Positions 45,392 to 60,210 of a stretch of 64,000 bases of DNA are shown here, piece by piece. The stretch comes from Sphingorhabdus sp. SMR4y. Its GTDB lineage: Bacteria; Pseudomonadota; Alphaproteobacteria; Sphingomonadales; Sphingomonadaceae. A program made the translations under genes and the position numbers. Positions within the stretch are counted from its first letter, which is position 1. Each line of letters begins with the position of its first letter. The notes beneath the pieces were generated by a model, which saw only the letters and a program-made list of their open reading frames with translations, made no database searches and was not told where the DNA came from. Where the stretch lies: positions 62,001 to 126,000 of the forward strand of contig NZ_CP022336.1 of the NCBI RefSeq assembly GCF_002218195.1. Direction: 5' to 3'.

Positions 45392-45462
45392 CCGTTCGTC
45401 CTGAGCCTGTCGAAGGACAATTCTCGTCTTGCGGTGCCCTTCGACAAGCTCAGTGCGAACGG
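45392..45462. repeat. Dispersed sphingomonad palindrome, copy 1 (murC-murB)
   Basis: The left arm CCGTTCGTCCTGAGCCTGTC and the right arm ending CTTCGACAAGCTCAGTGCG form an inverted repeat of about 24 bp with four mismatches, closing a loop of roughly 20 bases. The same element is found at 55321-55385 and 60139-60210. It fills most of the only large gap between murC and murB. Confidence 0.85.
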
Positions 45463-55021: not shown

Positions 55022-55129
55022 GTTCGACCGGAAATACTGCACCGCACAACAGAATCATTGACTCCCTGCGGCCGGTCATCCACTCTTCAATCTGCTTTTT
55101 GATCGTAGCCTCCGGGCGATGGTCATGAG

Positions 55130-55428
55130 ATATTGCGGGAGAGCGTTTTGCTGTCCCACCGGACAGAAGAGCCGCCGAAGGAGCAACCGCCCCGGAAACT
55201 CTCAGGCCCCTGGACCGCAATATTCTCACAGGCACTCTGGAAAGAGAGCGGATGGTCCTAACGACCGGCGCTCCACCGAAGGGGTAAATGGCGTCGGATT
55301 TGGTCCGGCATGAACGCTCGCCGTTCATCCTGAGCTTGTCGAAGGATGGTTGGCAAGCGCGCTTCGACAAGCTCAGCACGAGCGGAAGTGAGAAGCCATG
55401 AAACTCTCAGGTTCCGTGACAGAGGGGG
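55130..55428 (+). ncRNA. Tandem glycine riboswitch upstream of gcvT
   Basis: Two glycine aptamers precede gcvT. Aptamer I (55130-55223) is closed by a perfect 9-bp P1 (ATATTGCGG with CCGCAATAT) and carries CCGAAGGAGCAA (55175-55186) and GAAACTCTCAGG (55195-55206). Aptamer II (about 55234-55426) has CTCTG/CAGAG as P1, CCGAAGGGGTAA (55276-55287) and GAAACTCTCAGG (55400-55411). Its P3 base is ATGGC (55288-55292) with GCCAT (55395-55399). The P3 arm is swollen to about 100 bases by a dispersed repeat at 55321-55385. Downstream, CTGTC (55454-55458) followed by TTTT can pair with GACAG (55418-55422) in competition with aptamer II P1. That suggests a terminator that glycine binding would prevent. 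Confidence 0.93.
55321..55385. repeat. Dispersed sphingomonad palindrome, copy 2 (inside riboswitch)
   Basis: The left arm CCGTTCATCCTGAGCTTGTC and the right arm containing CTTCGACAAGCTCAGCACG form the same inverted repeat as at 45392-45462. It lies wholly between the two strands of the P3 stem of glycine aptamer II, so the stem can still close around it. Confidence 0.85.
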
Positions 55429-55479
55429 CAGTTTTGCAGGGCTTTGCTGCGGGCTGTCTTTTGTTTGAGCGGAAATATC

Positions 55480-56622
55480 ATGAGTGAAAATACCCAAAAT
55501 CTGAAGCAATTGCCACTCGGTGACTGGCATCGTGGTCTCGGCGCGCGGATGGTGCCCTTCGCCGGCTATGAAATGCCGGTCCAATATGAAGGCGTGATGG
55601 CCGAGCATATCTGGACCCGGACCGAAGCGGGCCTGTTCGATGTTTCCCACATGGGTCAGTTGCAACTGACAGGCGAGGGCGCAGCTGCGGCGCTGGAACG
55701 GGTCACGCCGGGCAATCTCTCGGCGCTGGCGGCGGGCAAGATCCGCTACACGCTTCTGCTCGCTCAGGATGGCGGGATTTTGGACGATCTGATGGTGACC
55801 AACACCGGTCAGAATCTCTATCTGGTGGTCAATGGCGCGACCAAGCATGACGATATCGCCTATTTGCGCGAACATTTGCCCGACAGTCTGACGCTGCACC
55901 ATCTCGAAGACGCAGCCTTGTTGGCGCTGCAGGGACCGAAGGCCGCAGAAGCGCTCGCAAAACTGGGTATCGACCCGTTCGAGCCGGACTGGCCTCTGCC
56001 AACCGATCTGCATTTCATGGAAGCCGGACCCTTTCTCTGGAACGGTATCCCGCTCGGGATCAGCCGTTCGGGCTATACCGGCGAGGACGGCTTTGAAATC
56101 AGCGTTCCGGCAGAACATGCGGTGACGCTGGCCGAGGCTCTGACCGAGCTGGAAGAAGTCCGCCCGATCGGGCTGGGCGCGCGCGACAGCCTCCGGCTCG
56201 AAGCCGGTCTGCCGCTTTACGGTCATGACATGAATGCCGATATATTGCCGGTCGAGGCCAATCTGAACTTCGCTCTGTCCAAGGCGCGGCGGGAAGAGGG
56301 CAATTTTGCCGGAGCAGAGCGCGTGCTCGCGCAATATCCGGACAAGGCCGATAAAAAGCGCGTGGGCCTGTTCGTCGACGGTCGCCAGCCGGTTCGCGAA
56401 GGCGCTACGGTTGTAAATGCAGCCGGCGAGGCCATCGGTAAGGTCACCAGCGGCGGTTTCTCGCCGACGCTGCAGCGTCCGATTGCCATGGCCTATGTGC
56501 CGATGGATATGTCGGAAACCGGTACCGCCATTACCGTCGAGCAGAGGGGCAAGACGATAGCCTGTACCGTCGCCGACATGCCCTTTGTGCCACATAACTA
56601 TCACCGCAAAACCAAGCCATAA
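55480..56622 (+). CDS. gcvT: Glycine cleavage T protein (aminomethyltransferase)
   Basis: This 380-residue enzyme moves the methylene group from aminomethyl-lipoyl GcvH to tetrahydrofolate and releases ammonia. It has family segments [81 protein letters not shown] and the C-terminal [10 protein letters not shown]-like [13 protein letters not shown] frame opens at 55444 within the riboswitch expression platform, but the ATG at 55480 is the natural start. It is the first gene of the glycine-riboswitch-controlled gcv operon. Confidence 0.96.
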
Positions 56623-56645: not shown

Positions 56646-57017
56646 ATGAGCCGATATTTTACCGATGAACATGAATGGGTCGAGGTCGAGGGCGATACCG
56701 CGACCGTCGGTATCACCGACTATGCACAGGAACAGCTGGGCGACATCGTGTTTGTCGAAGTACCGGAAGTCGGGACAGAACTGGCGCAGGGCGATGATGC
56801 CGCCGTGGTGGAGTCGGTCAAGGCCGCGTCCGACGTCTATGCCGCAGTCTCCGGCGAAGTGATCGAGGTCAATGAAGCGCTGGAAGACGAGCCCGGCCTG
56901 GTCAACTCGTCGGCCGAGGAAGACGGCTGGTTTTTCCGGATCACGCTGTCCGACAAGGACGAGCTCAGCGACCTGATGGACGAAAAGGCCTATAAGGCCT
57001 TTGTCGAGGGTCTTTAG
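56646..57017 (+). CDS. gcvH: Glycine cleavage H protein (lipoyl carrier)
   Basis: This 123-residue lipoyl-domain protein shuttles the aminomethyl intermediate between GcvP, GcvT and the lipoamide dehydrogenase. The lipoylated lysine is Lys59 in [12 protein letters not shown]. The beginning ([14 protein letters not shown]) and the [18 protein letters not shown] segment are typical. It starts 23 bases after gcvT and is followed by a compound palindromic element before gcvPA. Confidence 0.97.
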
Positions 57018-57168: not shown

Positions 57169-58527
57169 ATGCGTTATCTCCCGCTGACTCCCGATGACCG
57201 GCAGTCGATGCTGTCCAAGATCGGCGCGCAATCGATCGATGACCTGTTTGTCGATGTTCCGGAAGAAGCCCGGCTGAACGGACCGATCGAGGGCCTGCCG
57301 ATGCACGCCGGCGAGATGGCGGTAGAAGCGCATATGAAGGCGCTGGCGCGCAAGAACCACGCCGCCGGCGATATGCCCTTCTTCCTCGGGGCAGGGGCCT
57401 ATCGCCACCATGTTCCGGCGAGCGTTGACCATATCATCCAGCGCGGCGAATTTCTGACCGCCTACACGCCCTACCAGCCGGAAATCGCGCAGGGCACGCT
57501 GCAGACCCTGTTCGAGTTCCAGACGCAGGTCGCGCGTCTGTTCGGGGGCGATGTCGCCAATGCCTCGATGTACGACGGCTCGACCGCCTGCTGGGAAGCG
57601 ATCACCATGGCGCGGCGGATTACCAAGCGCGGCAAGGCGATCCTTTCGTCCGGTCTGCACCCGCATTATGTATCGGTCGCCAAGACCATGGCGCGCTTCA
57701 CCAAGGACGATCTGGCTTACCAGGCACCAACGCTTGACGCCGCCACCGATAGTGACGGCCTGCTCGAGCAGATCGATGACGAGACCAGCTGCGTGGTCGT
57801 GCAATATCCCGATATATTGGGCCGGATCGGCGATCTCACCGCCATCGCGGAAAAGGCGCACCAGCATAAAGCCCTGCTGATTGCCGTGGTCACCGAACCG
57901 GTTGCGCTCGGCGCGATCAAGTCGCCGGGTGAAATGGATGCCGATATTGTTGTGGGCGAAGGCCAGTCTCTGGGTGTCGGCCTGCAATTTGGCGGCCCCT
58001 ATGTCGGCCTGTTCGGATGCAAGCAGAAATATGTCCGGCAAATGCCCGGACGGCTGTGCGGCGAGACCGTCGACGCCGAAGGCAAGCGCGGCTTCGTGCT
58101 GACGCTCTCCACCCGCGAACAGCATATCCGCCGCGAAAAAGCGACCTCCAATATCTGCACCAACAGCGGATTATGCGCGCTGGCATTCTCGGCGCATATG
58201 ACCTTGCTTGGCGAAAAGGGGCTGCGCGAACTGGCAATGCTCAATCACAAGAAAGCGGTGCAGGCCGCGAACCGGCTGTCGCAGATCAGCGGCGTCAAAC
58301 TGTTGAATGACAGCTTTTTCAACGAGTTCACGCTCGTTCTTGATAAGGATGCGCGGCCCGTCGTACGGCAACTTGCCGACCAGCGGATCCTGGCCGGTGT
58401 GTCTCTCGGCCGTCTTTATCCGGATGTGACGCCGCTCGCGCACGGCTTGCTGGTCGCCGTCACCGAAACATCAACCGATGGAGAGCTCGAAGAATTTGCG
58501 ACCGCTCTGGAAGGAGCGCTGTCATGA
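57169..58527 (+). CDS. gcvPA: Glycine dehydrogenase (decarboxylating) subunit 1
   Basis: This 452-residue protein is the N-terminal half of the glycine decarboxylase P protein, made as a separate subunit as in many bacteria and archaea. Family pieces include [44 protein letters not shown]-like [28 protein letters not shown] and [16 protein letters not shown]. It forms a heterotetramer with GcvPB. GGAAG-type ribosome sites lie just before the ATG. It overlaps gcvPB by four bases. Confidence 0.96.
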
Positions 58528-60107
58528 GCATGCTCTCCGAAGGACGCCCGACCAGACAGGAAGACAATCTGAACATGACCGACGATGCGTCCATCACTAC
58601 CCACACCGGCAACCGCGCCCTGATGGTCGACGAACCGCTGATCTTTGAAATCGGTTCGCCCGATCGCAGCGGCGTCGATCTTCCGGATGCTCCGCAGGTC
58701 GAAAACCGTCTTGGCGGTCTCGAACGCGAAGCGCCGATCGCCATCCCCGGATTGTCGGAAGGCGAGATGGTGCGGCACTATACCAGGCTCAGCCGCCAGA
58801 ATTACGCGATCGACGTCGGCCTGTTTCCGCTCGGCAGCTGCACCATGAAGCACAATCCGCGACTCAACGAGAAAATGGCGCGGCTCAAGGGCTTTGCCGA
58901 CATCCATCCGTTGCAGCCGGTCGACAGCGTGCAGGGTGCGCTCGGCGTGATAAACGAACTGGCGGTCTGGCTGATCAAGCTGACCGGCATGCACGGCGTG
59001 GCAATGACGCCCAAGGCCGGCGCGCATGGCGAGCTTTGCGGTATCCTCTGCATCCGCGCCGCTCTCGAAGCGCGCGGCGATGCGCGCGAAGTGATCCTGG
59101 TGCCGGAAAGCGCCCATGGCACCAATCCGGCCACCGCAGCCTTCGCCGGTTACAAGGTCGAGGATATTCCCGCCAATGCCGCGGGCCGTGTTGATCTCGA
59201 AGCGCTGAAGGCGCGTCTGGGACCGGATGTCGCCGGTGTGATGATCACCAATCCCAATACCTGCGGCCTGTTCGAGCCGGATATGAAGGCGATTTCCGAT
59301 GCGGTCCATGAAGCCGGCGGCTATGTCTATTGCGATGGCGCGAATTTCAACGCCATCGTCGGCAAGGTCCGTCCCGGCGATCTCGGTATTGATGCGATGC
59401 ACATCAATCTGCACAAGACCTTCTCCACCCCGCATGGCGGCGGAGGCCCGGGTTCCGGTCCGGTGGTATTGTCCGAAGCGCTGGCGCCTTACGGGCCTTT
59501 GCCATTTACCGAACGCCATGCCGACGGTCATATCACTTTGGTCGAGGAAGAGACGGTCGAGGACCGGCATCCGCATACATTCGGCCGTATGAGCGCCTTT
59601 CATGGCCAGATGGGCATGTTTACGCGGGCTCTGACCTATATCCTGAGTCACGGCGCAGACGGCCTGGCACAGGTGGCGGAAGATGCGGTGCTCAATGCCA
59701 ATTATATCCTGCGCAGCCTGGAGGACGTACTCGAGGCGCCCTTCGCGCACAGCGGTCCCTGCATGCACGAGGCTTTGTTCTCGGACAAGGGCTTCACCAA
59801 CGACCTGACCACGCTCGATCTCGCCAAGGGCATGATCGACGAAGGCTATCACCCGATGACCATGTATTTCCCGCTGGTGGTGCATGGCGCGATGCTGGTC
59901 GAGCCGACCGAGACCGAGAGCAAGGCGGCGATCGACCAGTTTATCGGCGCCTTCCGCTCGGTGGCCGAACGGGCCAAGGCGGGCGACGAAACACTGAAAA
60001 GCGCGCCTTATTTTGCTCCGCGGCGGCGGCTGGATGAAACGCAGGCCGCGCGCAAGCCGATATTGGTGTGGACGGAAGACGAGGAATTTGCTCAAGCTGC
60101 GGAATAA
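58524..60107 (+). CDS. gcvPB: Glycine dehydrogenase (decarboxylating) subunit 2
   Basis: This 527-residue protein is the PLP-bearing half of glycine decarboxylase. The PLP lysine is Lys298 in [17 protein letters not shown]. The segments [22 protein letters not shown] and [16 protein letters not shown] are typical. It releases CO2 from glycine and loads the remainder on GcvH lipoate. The N-terminal 17 residues before a second ATG at 58575 are poorly conserved-looking, so the later start is possible, but 58524 overlaps gcvPA as ATGA. Confidence 0.96.
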
Positions 60108-60138: not shown

Positions 60139-60210
60139 CCGTTCGTCCTGAGCCTGTCGAAGGACAGTTTCCGGTCGATGGAGGCACTTCGACAAGCTCA
60201 GTGCAAACGG
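60139..60210. repeat. Dispersed sphingomonad palindrome, copy 3 (gcvPB-BASS gene)
   Basis: The left arm CCGTTCGTCCTGAGCCTGTC and the right arm CTTCGACAAGCTCAGTGCA form the third copy of the inverted repeat in this window. It lies in the 124-base gap between gcvPB and the transporter gene and could work as a terminator for the gcv operon, though it has no T-run. Confidence 0.85.

Follow-up and report, generated by a model that had tools for sequence, protein, structure and literature searches.

In the gcvT tandem glycine riboswitch of Neisseria gonorrhoeae, aptamer 2 has a P3 loop of 73 nt, possibly folded as a Y with two stem-loops, and the P3 region varies within the genus. As described in the part of PMC13104608 available to us, this switch answers glycine in vivo and acts on translation; the same part gives no repeat origin for the P3 loop. 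The riboswitch of Sphingorhabdus sp. SMR4y is similar in having two aptamers upstream of gcvT and an enlarged P3 in aptamer II. In contrast to the gonococcal RNA, its arm is 112 nt long and contains an identified dispersed repeat, and arms alternate between species.

Repeats occur inside cyanobacterial RNase P RNA, a point for which our literature search on repeats in that RNA found no support. Rickettsia palindromic elements lie inside genes, and the formation of riboswitches or terminators by MITEs has been called conceivable (PMC10969869, in the sections available to us). What these cases share with the present one is a dispersed palindrome tolerated within a functional gene product; here, however, it is hosted by an arm that belongs to a metabolite-sensing aptamer and is not the same in closely related species. 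The repeat also resembles REP elements and MITEs as portrayed in those sections, which are short dispersed palindromes with inverted ends, many copies and a stable hairpin, but it has neither a Y1-type transposase nor a clean target duplication that we could find, and the copy in question sits within a structured regulatory RNA. No repeat inside a riboswitch arm was described in the titles and abstract openings covered by our literature search, which included few subscription papers. The available part of PMC3110155, in which a Bordetella repeat and a gcvT riboswitch are named separately, likewise describes no repeat within a riboswitch.

The window analysed is a stretch of 64,000 nucleotides, positions 62001-126000 of the 3.48 Mb one-contig genome (G000); all features are given on the + strand. 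Aptamer I (55126-55227; 60.9 bits, E 4.6e-12) and aptamer II (55227-55432; 42.6 bits) both score above the RF00504 gathering score of 32, confirming an earlier note on this DNA that had recognized two aptamers with conserved cores. Aptamer II was absent from a window-wide Rfam scan, in which one overlapping same-clan match was dropped, probably because the aptamers share one base. The glycine cleavage genes follow in the order gcvT (55480-56622; NF010093, 528 bits), gcvH (56646-57017; TIGR00527, 158 bits), gcvPA (57169-58527; NF001696, 613 bits) and gcvPB (58524-60107; NF003346, 682 bits). In the candidate region for an expression platform, a single terminator-like site is found at 55433-55453, where shuffles expect 0.5, and the fold of 55417-55472 has a z of -1.4. 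The alignment of aptamer II to the Rfam covariance model is complete (model positions 1-94), with 105 bases replacing four consensus bases in the P3b loop. The arm concerned is P3b, the distal part of P3, and the whole of it spans 112 nt (55288-55399). The earlier note had placed a repeat copy in the P3 arm and had named ATGGC/GCCAT (55288-55292/55395-55399) as the stem base, and both placements are borne out.

The inserted element occupies 55321-55385 and runs exactly from CCGTTC to GAGCGG. When set against other copies, these are the ends of the repeat family, as expected for the full copy of a dispersed palindrome that the earlier note had seen here. In the genome of this strain, 58 matches to the repeat were merged by hand to 40 distinct places, of which 32 are close to full length. 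The true number is at least this high, as 40 of 66 candidates were scored and the copy at 60139 is not among the matches. The best other genomic copy is 88% identical to the riboswitch repeat over 65 bases. Two further copies lie in the window, one at 45392-45462 (75% identity to the riboswitch copy) and one at 60139-60210, directly after gcvPB, whose arms were located and whose register was compared by eye. Both belong to the family, as first noticed, but as relatives rather than near-identical copies, and a gapless repeat search of the window returned no repeat of 40 or more bases. The gcv genes have one repeat copy in their leader and another (60139-60210) at their 3' end. In most of the copies printed for comparison (20 fetched, plus the two window copies in register), the ends read CCGTTCG...CGAACGG and the inner arms CTGAGCYTGTCGAAG...CTTCGACARGCTCAG, so that most have terminal inverted repeats of the MITE type (CCGTTC...GAACGG). 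In the riboswitch copy, the inner arms are CTGAGCTTGTCGAAG (55330-55344) and CTTCGACAAGCTCAG (55362-55376). This copy alone folds at -37.1 kcal/mol (z -5.9).

The family is present in 29 of 32 congeneric genomes, with 1 to 48 matches each on both strands combined. Repeat load is uneven across the genus, with at least 25 matches in 15 of the 32 genomes and 0 to 5 in 13. REP elements have an associated Y1-type transposase (RAYT). A search for this transposase (PF01797) gave no match in the strain's own genome and matches in 13 of the 32 congeners; at six fetched loci around the relatives' transposase genes (six of 22 matches), repeat arms and copies were absent. Because of these two results, we call the family REP-like only and claim no mover for it. 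An inspection by eye of the riboswitch copy established no clean target-site duplication; CATGAA flanks the copy on both sides, but away from the element ends. The Aggregatibacter sRNA family RF02901 was considered for the repeat core (55325-55381) and rejected, since it scores 21.6 bits against a cut-off of 97. The palindrome core that gives this weak match may recur in distant bacteria.

The repeat arm is found in three species (G000, G010 and G003), and its fold was predicted in each. In all three, ATGGC/GCCAT closes the same two branches, a small hairpin (55293-55309 in G000) and the repeat hairpin, with z values for the arm of -4.8, -9.3 and -7.6. The P3b of repeat carriers is therefore predicted to be a three-way junction and not, as the earlier note had it, a hairpin that simply lengthens P3. 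Predicted pairs are mostly kept: five of 132 pair cells are broken in the three-sequence alignment, and in the small hairpin one-sided C-G/U-G changes preserve pairs, and a single pair is lost in one species. The three species do not differ in the inner repeat arms, where 30 of 30 columns are invariant as compared to 60 of 85 other ungapped columns (Fisher p 2e-4, for a comparison chosen post hoc). Scores for the aptamer II core are similar throughout, at 42.6 (G000), 43.7 (G010) and 43.6 bits (G003).

To place this arm among its relatives, glycine riboswitches were collected from 32 congeneric genomes. A match was obtained in 30; G012 and G016, both incomplete, gave none. Aptamer II was extracted by a sequence pattern in all 30; for G010 and G013, the genome-wide search had given one aptamer, and the second was recovered by the pattern, with that of G010 confirmed by Rfam and that of G013 resting on the pattern. 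The length of P3b among the 30 species is 16 nt (one species), 21 (two), 22 (11), 27 (one), 40 (one), 50 (two), 57 (nine), 112 (two) or 119 (one). The two longest classes are the repeat arms. The 57-nt arms (G002, G006, G008, G009, G014, G015, G019, G020 and G022) are palindromes unrelated to the repeat, and the remaining 18 species have other arms of 16-50 nt. In the 57-nt arm, predicted pairs are wholly kept: none of 19 pairs is broken in any of the nine sequences, and at three pairs both bases differ in one or more sequences. In four species (G001, G011, G021 and G026; loci L032, L039, L044 and L028), a different P3b stands beside an altered adjoining core, AAGCTCTCAGG in place of AAACTCTCAGG and GGGGAAA in place of GGGGTAA, as if arm and neighbouring core had moved together. 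Aptamer II P2 is 49 nt long in G013 (locus L050) and 28-33 nt in the other 29 congeners.

The 57-nt arm itself contains a dispersed sequence. Its second half reads CCGCCGAAGCCTTGGCGAAG in most of the nine carriers, and a 21-base form of this half on the other strand, CCTTCGCCAAGGCTTCGGCGG, is here named module 2. A degenerate pattern for module 2 gives 50 matches in the 32 genomes, 10 of them in the riboswitch, as compared to nine for the reversed pattern. Outside the riboswitch, the identical 21 bases recur at 16 places, though several positions of the pattern are free. Twenty module 2 places sit in several different larger contexts, some of which are common to multiple species. A search of nine genomes with the full 57-nt arm found no whole copy beyond the riboswitch; its six matches elsewhere cover 22-29 bases each. 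Across the genus, the P3b of aptamer II has come to be filled by two or more palindromes, the dispersed repeat and the arm with its dispersed module.

Module 2 is also found in the neighbouring arm. With up to three mismatches, it is present in the aptamer II P2 of 11 of the 30 congeners; the P2 of the strain itself (55245-55273) has no match. Taking P2 and P3b together, 20 of 60 arms contain it, where dinucleotide shuffles give 0.025 on average and random hairpins 0.03, for a pattern that was composed after the arms were seen. Dispersal of the P2 form was assessed by a count of near matches, which fails its control: the 32 genomes have 24 matches, nine of them at the riboswitch, and the reversed sequence gives 40. 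Seven of the nine riboswitch matches to the P2 form have one orientation and two the opposite. The module may therefore occur in both orientations in P2, a tentative reading because it is nearly palindromic. The P2 alignment comprises 12 arms of type B, with the duplicates G025 and G027 and also G011 left out, and none of the counts depends on it.

The distribution of arms was compared with a tree of gcvT and argS for 28 of the 30 species; G015 (truncated contig) and G025 (no argS locus fetched) were left out. On this tree, the repeat arm against the rest requires at least three changes and the module-2 arm against the rest at least four. The five arm classes together require at least nine, where one class lumps two unlike arms. 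A single clade of the three repeat carriers is rejected (p-AU 2.8e-6), as is a pairing of G000 with G010 (p-AU 3e-4), the pair having been chosen after the trees were seen. The species closest to G000 on this tree, and next to it on the gcvT tree, is G019, yet it carries the module-2 arm. Between these two species, aptamer I is alike at 66 of 69 positions (96%), P2 at 27 of 29 (93%) and the sequence downstream at 80 of 80 (100%), and gcvT is 89% alike, whereas the P3b arms are only 21% alike. The placement of G019 conflicts between genes, with G000 on the gcvT tree and with G010 on the argS tree, and the pattern within this trio could in part reflect lineage sorting or recombination at the level of genes. 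G003 falls outside the G000/G010/G019 clade in both trees.

Divergence within the repeat arm bears on its age. The arm of G003 is 76-81% identical to those of G000 and G010, as compared to 79% for gcvT and 75-76% for argS; for G003 and G010, the values are 81%, 79% and 76%, respectively. Because the arm has diverged about as much as the two genes, the repeat-arm allele is old, and a recent landing of the repeat in the riboswitch, which we had considered, was dropped for the same reason. Old vertical descent, and not recent transfer, would fit the repeat arm, and exchange would then be needed mainly for the module-2 arm. Independent insertions fail to explain the pattern, since the arms of either type are homologous to one another among the carriers, and the two types are interleaved on the tree. 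Given that the repeat carriers are not a clade and that G019 has the other arm between flanks that are 93-100% alike, the simplest account is replacement of the P3b arm as a unit, or cassette, between species.

A survey of other genera of the family covered 80 loci from 60 genera, picked from the 150 best-scoring matches, a choice that could favour short arms. In all 68 parsed loci (50 genera), aptamer II P3b is 14-36 nt long (median 20), a range that omits 12 unparsed loci, none of which by eye has a P3b over about 45 nt. The statement in the earlier note that P3 length is variable across this RNA class is not upheld by these lengths. Module 2 is found in two of 136 arms from other genera (P2 of L142 and P2 of L165), where 0.03 are expected from shuffles and 0.06 from random hairpins. 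In aptamer II of L142 (genus code g91), P2 and P3b each form a nearly perfect palindrome in which CCGCCTTCGCT faces AGCTTCGGCGG or AGCTACGGCGG; the P3b palindrome is related to module 2 and fits a different pattern. Three other fetched g91 species lack both palindromes. A wider search for the second repeat arm followed 8-38 bases on by the end of a glycine aptamer gave four loci in 84,980 species, none above the Rfam gathering score, in a collection that may omit the strain's own or very near records and whose negative is uninformative on close relatives. The same pattern, with A or G allowed at one arm position, was found in one of 397 genomes of the family, that of the strain itself; ten genomes in this sample are from the genus, and the other two repeat carriers are not among them.

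Aptamer I, which has the same fold, shows no such freedom. Its P3b, CCGCCCCGG (55187-55195), is identical in 30 of 30 congeners. Among the other genera, it has at least four consecutive C in 68 of 68 parsed loci and equals CCGCCCCGG in 51 of them. The G-tract after aptamer II (55424-55428) reads GAGGGGGCAG in all 30 congeners, and at least four G follow aptamer II in the 68 parsed loci; one unparsed locus (L212) has a three-base C-tract only and no four-G tract. The C-tract is proposed to pair with this G-tract, by analogy with a pseudoknot described in the available part of PMC13104608. If the contact forms, it would lock the P3b of aptamer I and leave that of aptamer II free, and the pseudoknot may be why only the latter is free to vary. 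Both tracts are invariant, and covariation support for the pairing is therefore impossible here.

Our studies allow us to propose how the arm was filled. With a probability of about 0.7, we hold that palindromes, one of them a REP-like repeat, have filled the P3b of aptamer II in this genus and that the arm has been exchanged as a unit between species. The P3b of aptamer II would be a peripheral arm free of the contacts that tie aptamer I to the expression platform. The repeat would have entered it once, presumably by transposition, either in an ancestor of the three carriers or in their donor; the ATGGC/GCCAT stem base would remain, and the arm would become a three-way junction. As the palindrome would fold on itself, the core could form and glycine would presumably still be sensed. 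Thereafter, the arm would be swapped between species, most simply by homologous recombination across the conserved flanking cores, and the outcome would be close relatives with unrelated arms. The earlier note had named long, unrelated arms in relatives as a finding that would weaken the insertion claim, and such arms do occur, in nine of the 30 congeners (57 nt). They are read here as the mark of a slot that takes several palindromes, with the insertion retained, because an 88% identical copy exists elsewhere in the genome and the repeat is common where the riboswitch lacks it.

Another history, which takes up the earlier note's reading of an insertion that the riboswitch survived, is a single neutral insertion that was inherited vertically and tolerated in an arm that is nothing special. 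The three repeat arms agree in their small hairpin, their flanks and the terminal GAGCGG, which argues that the repeat entered the riboswitch once; short arms occur in relatives, and the arm alleles and genes have diverged equally. This history is nevertheless unlikely as a full account, given the rejection of the repeat carriers as a clade and the presence in G019, which adjoins G000 on the gcvT tree, of a module-2 arm homologous to those of eight other species. The earlier suggestion of a tolerated insertion holds in substance, supported by the repeat copy in P3b, the core scores of the three carriers and the short arms (16-22 nt) of relatives; the insertion now stands as one case of a wider replacement of arms. 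Somewhat less probable than the single inherited insertion is that selection maintains the repeat hairpin for a job in the riboswitch, such as a folding scaffold or a contact for a protein or RNase. The invariance of its inner 15-base arms and its persistence while gcvT diverged to 79% would agree with such a role. However, that comparison was picked after the data had been seen, conservation across the repeat family is also highest in the inner arms, which could thus have been converted from other copies, and related species manage without a repeat arm.

The lower score of the enlarged aptamer could instead mean that aptamer II is decaying in the carriers, with the insertion marking a loss of function and aptamer I working alone. 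Aptamer II scores 42.6 bits here against 52.5 in G005, which has a short arm of 16 nt, and the genome-wide search missed that of G010. We regard decay as very improbable, since the core and closing stem are preserved in three diverged species, the aptamer II of G010 reaches 43.7 bits on its own stretch, and a drop in score is expected from the length of the insertion; moreover, the gonococcal switch answers glycine with its long loop and predicted Y, according to the available part of its description. That there was no insertion at all, the arm having grown locally into a repeat-like palindrome or the repeat family having arisen from the riboswitch, draws on P3b already being a hairpin and on G007, which has a 50-nt arm without the repeat. 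This possibility is close to negligible: 88% identity over 65 bases to another genomic copy excludes chance, and many congeners have abundant copies of the repeat but none in their riboswitch.

Replacement of palindromic arms as units thus remains the reading we prefer. A broader and more doubtful extension is that riboswitch arms are preferred, renewable sites of landing and exchange, where dispersed palindromes enter hairpins already present, with tertiary contacts setting which arms are open and the cores anchoring shuffling between species. Sequence resembling module 2 in P2, tentatively in both orientations in this genus and also in two other genera, one of them with a similar palindrome in P3b, is what such an extension would lead one to expect.

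The peripheral arms of structured RNAs vary widely between species, and the origin of new arms is rarely known. At this locus, one arm can be assigned to a family of dispersed repeats, and a portion of another goes back to a second dispersed module. Living relatives include species with a short arm, with a filled one and with one filled differently, and the adjoining aptamer, which shares the fold, acts as a constrained control. The way in which a regulatory RNA acquires a new branch thereby becomes directly testable in vitro.
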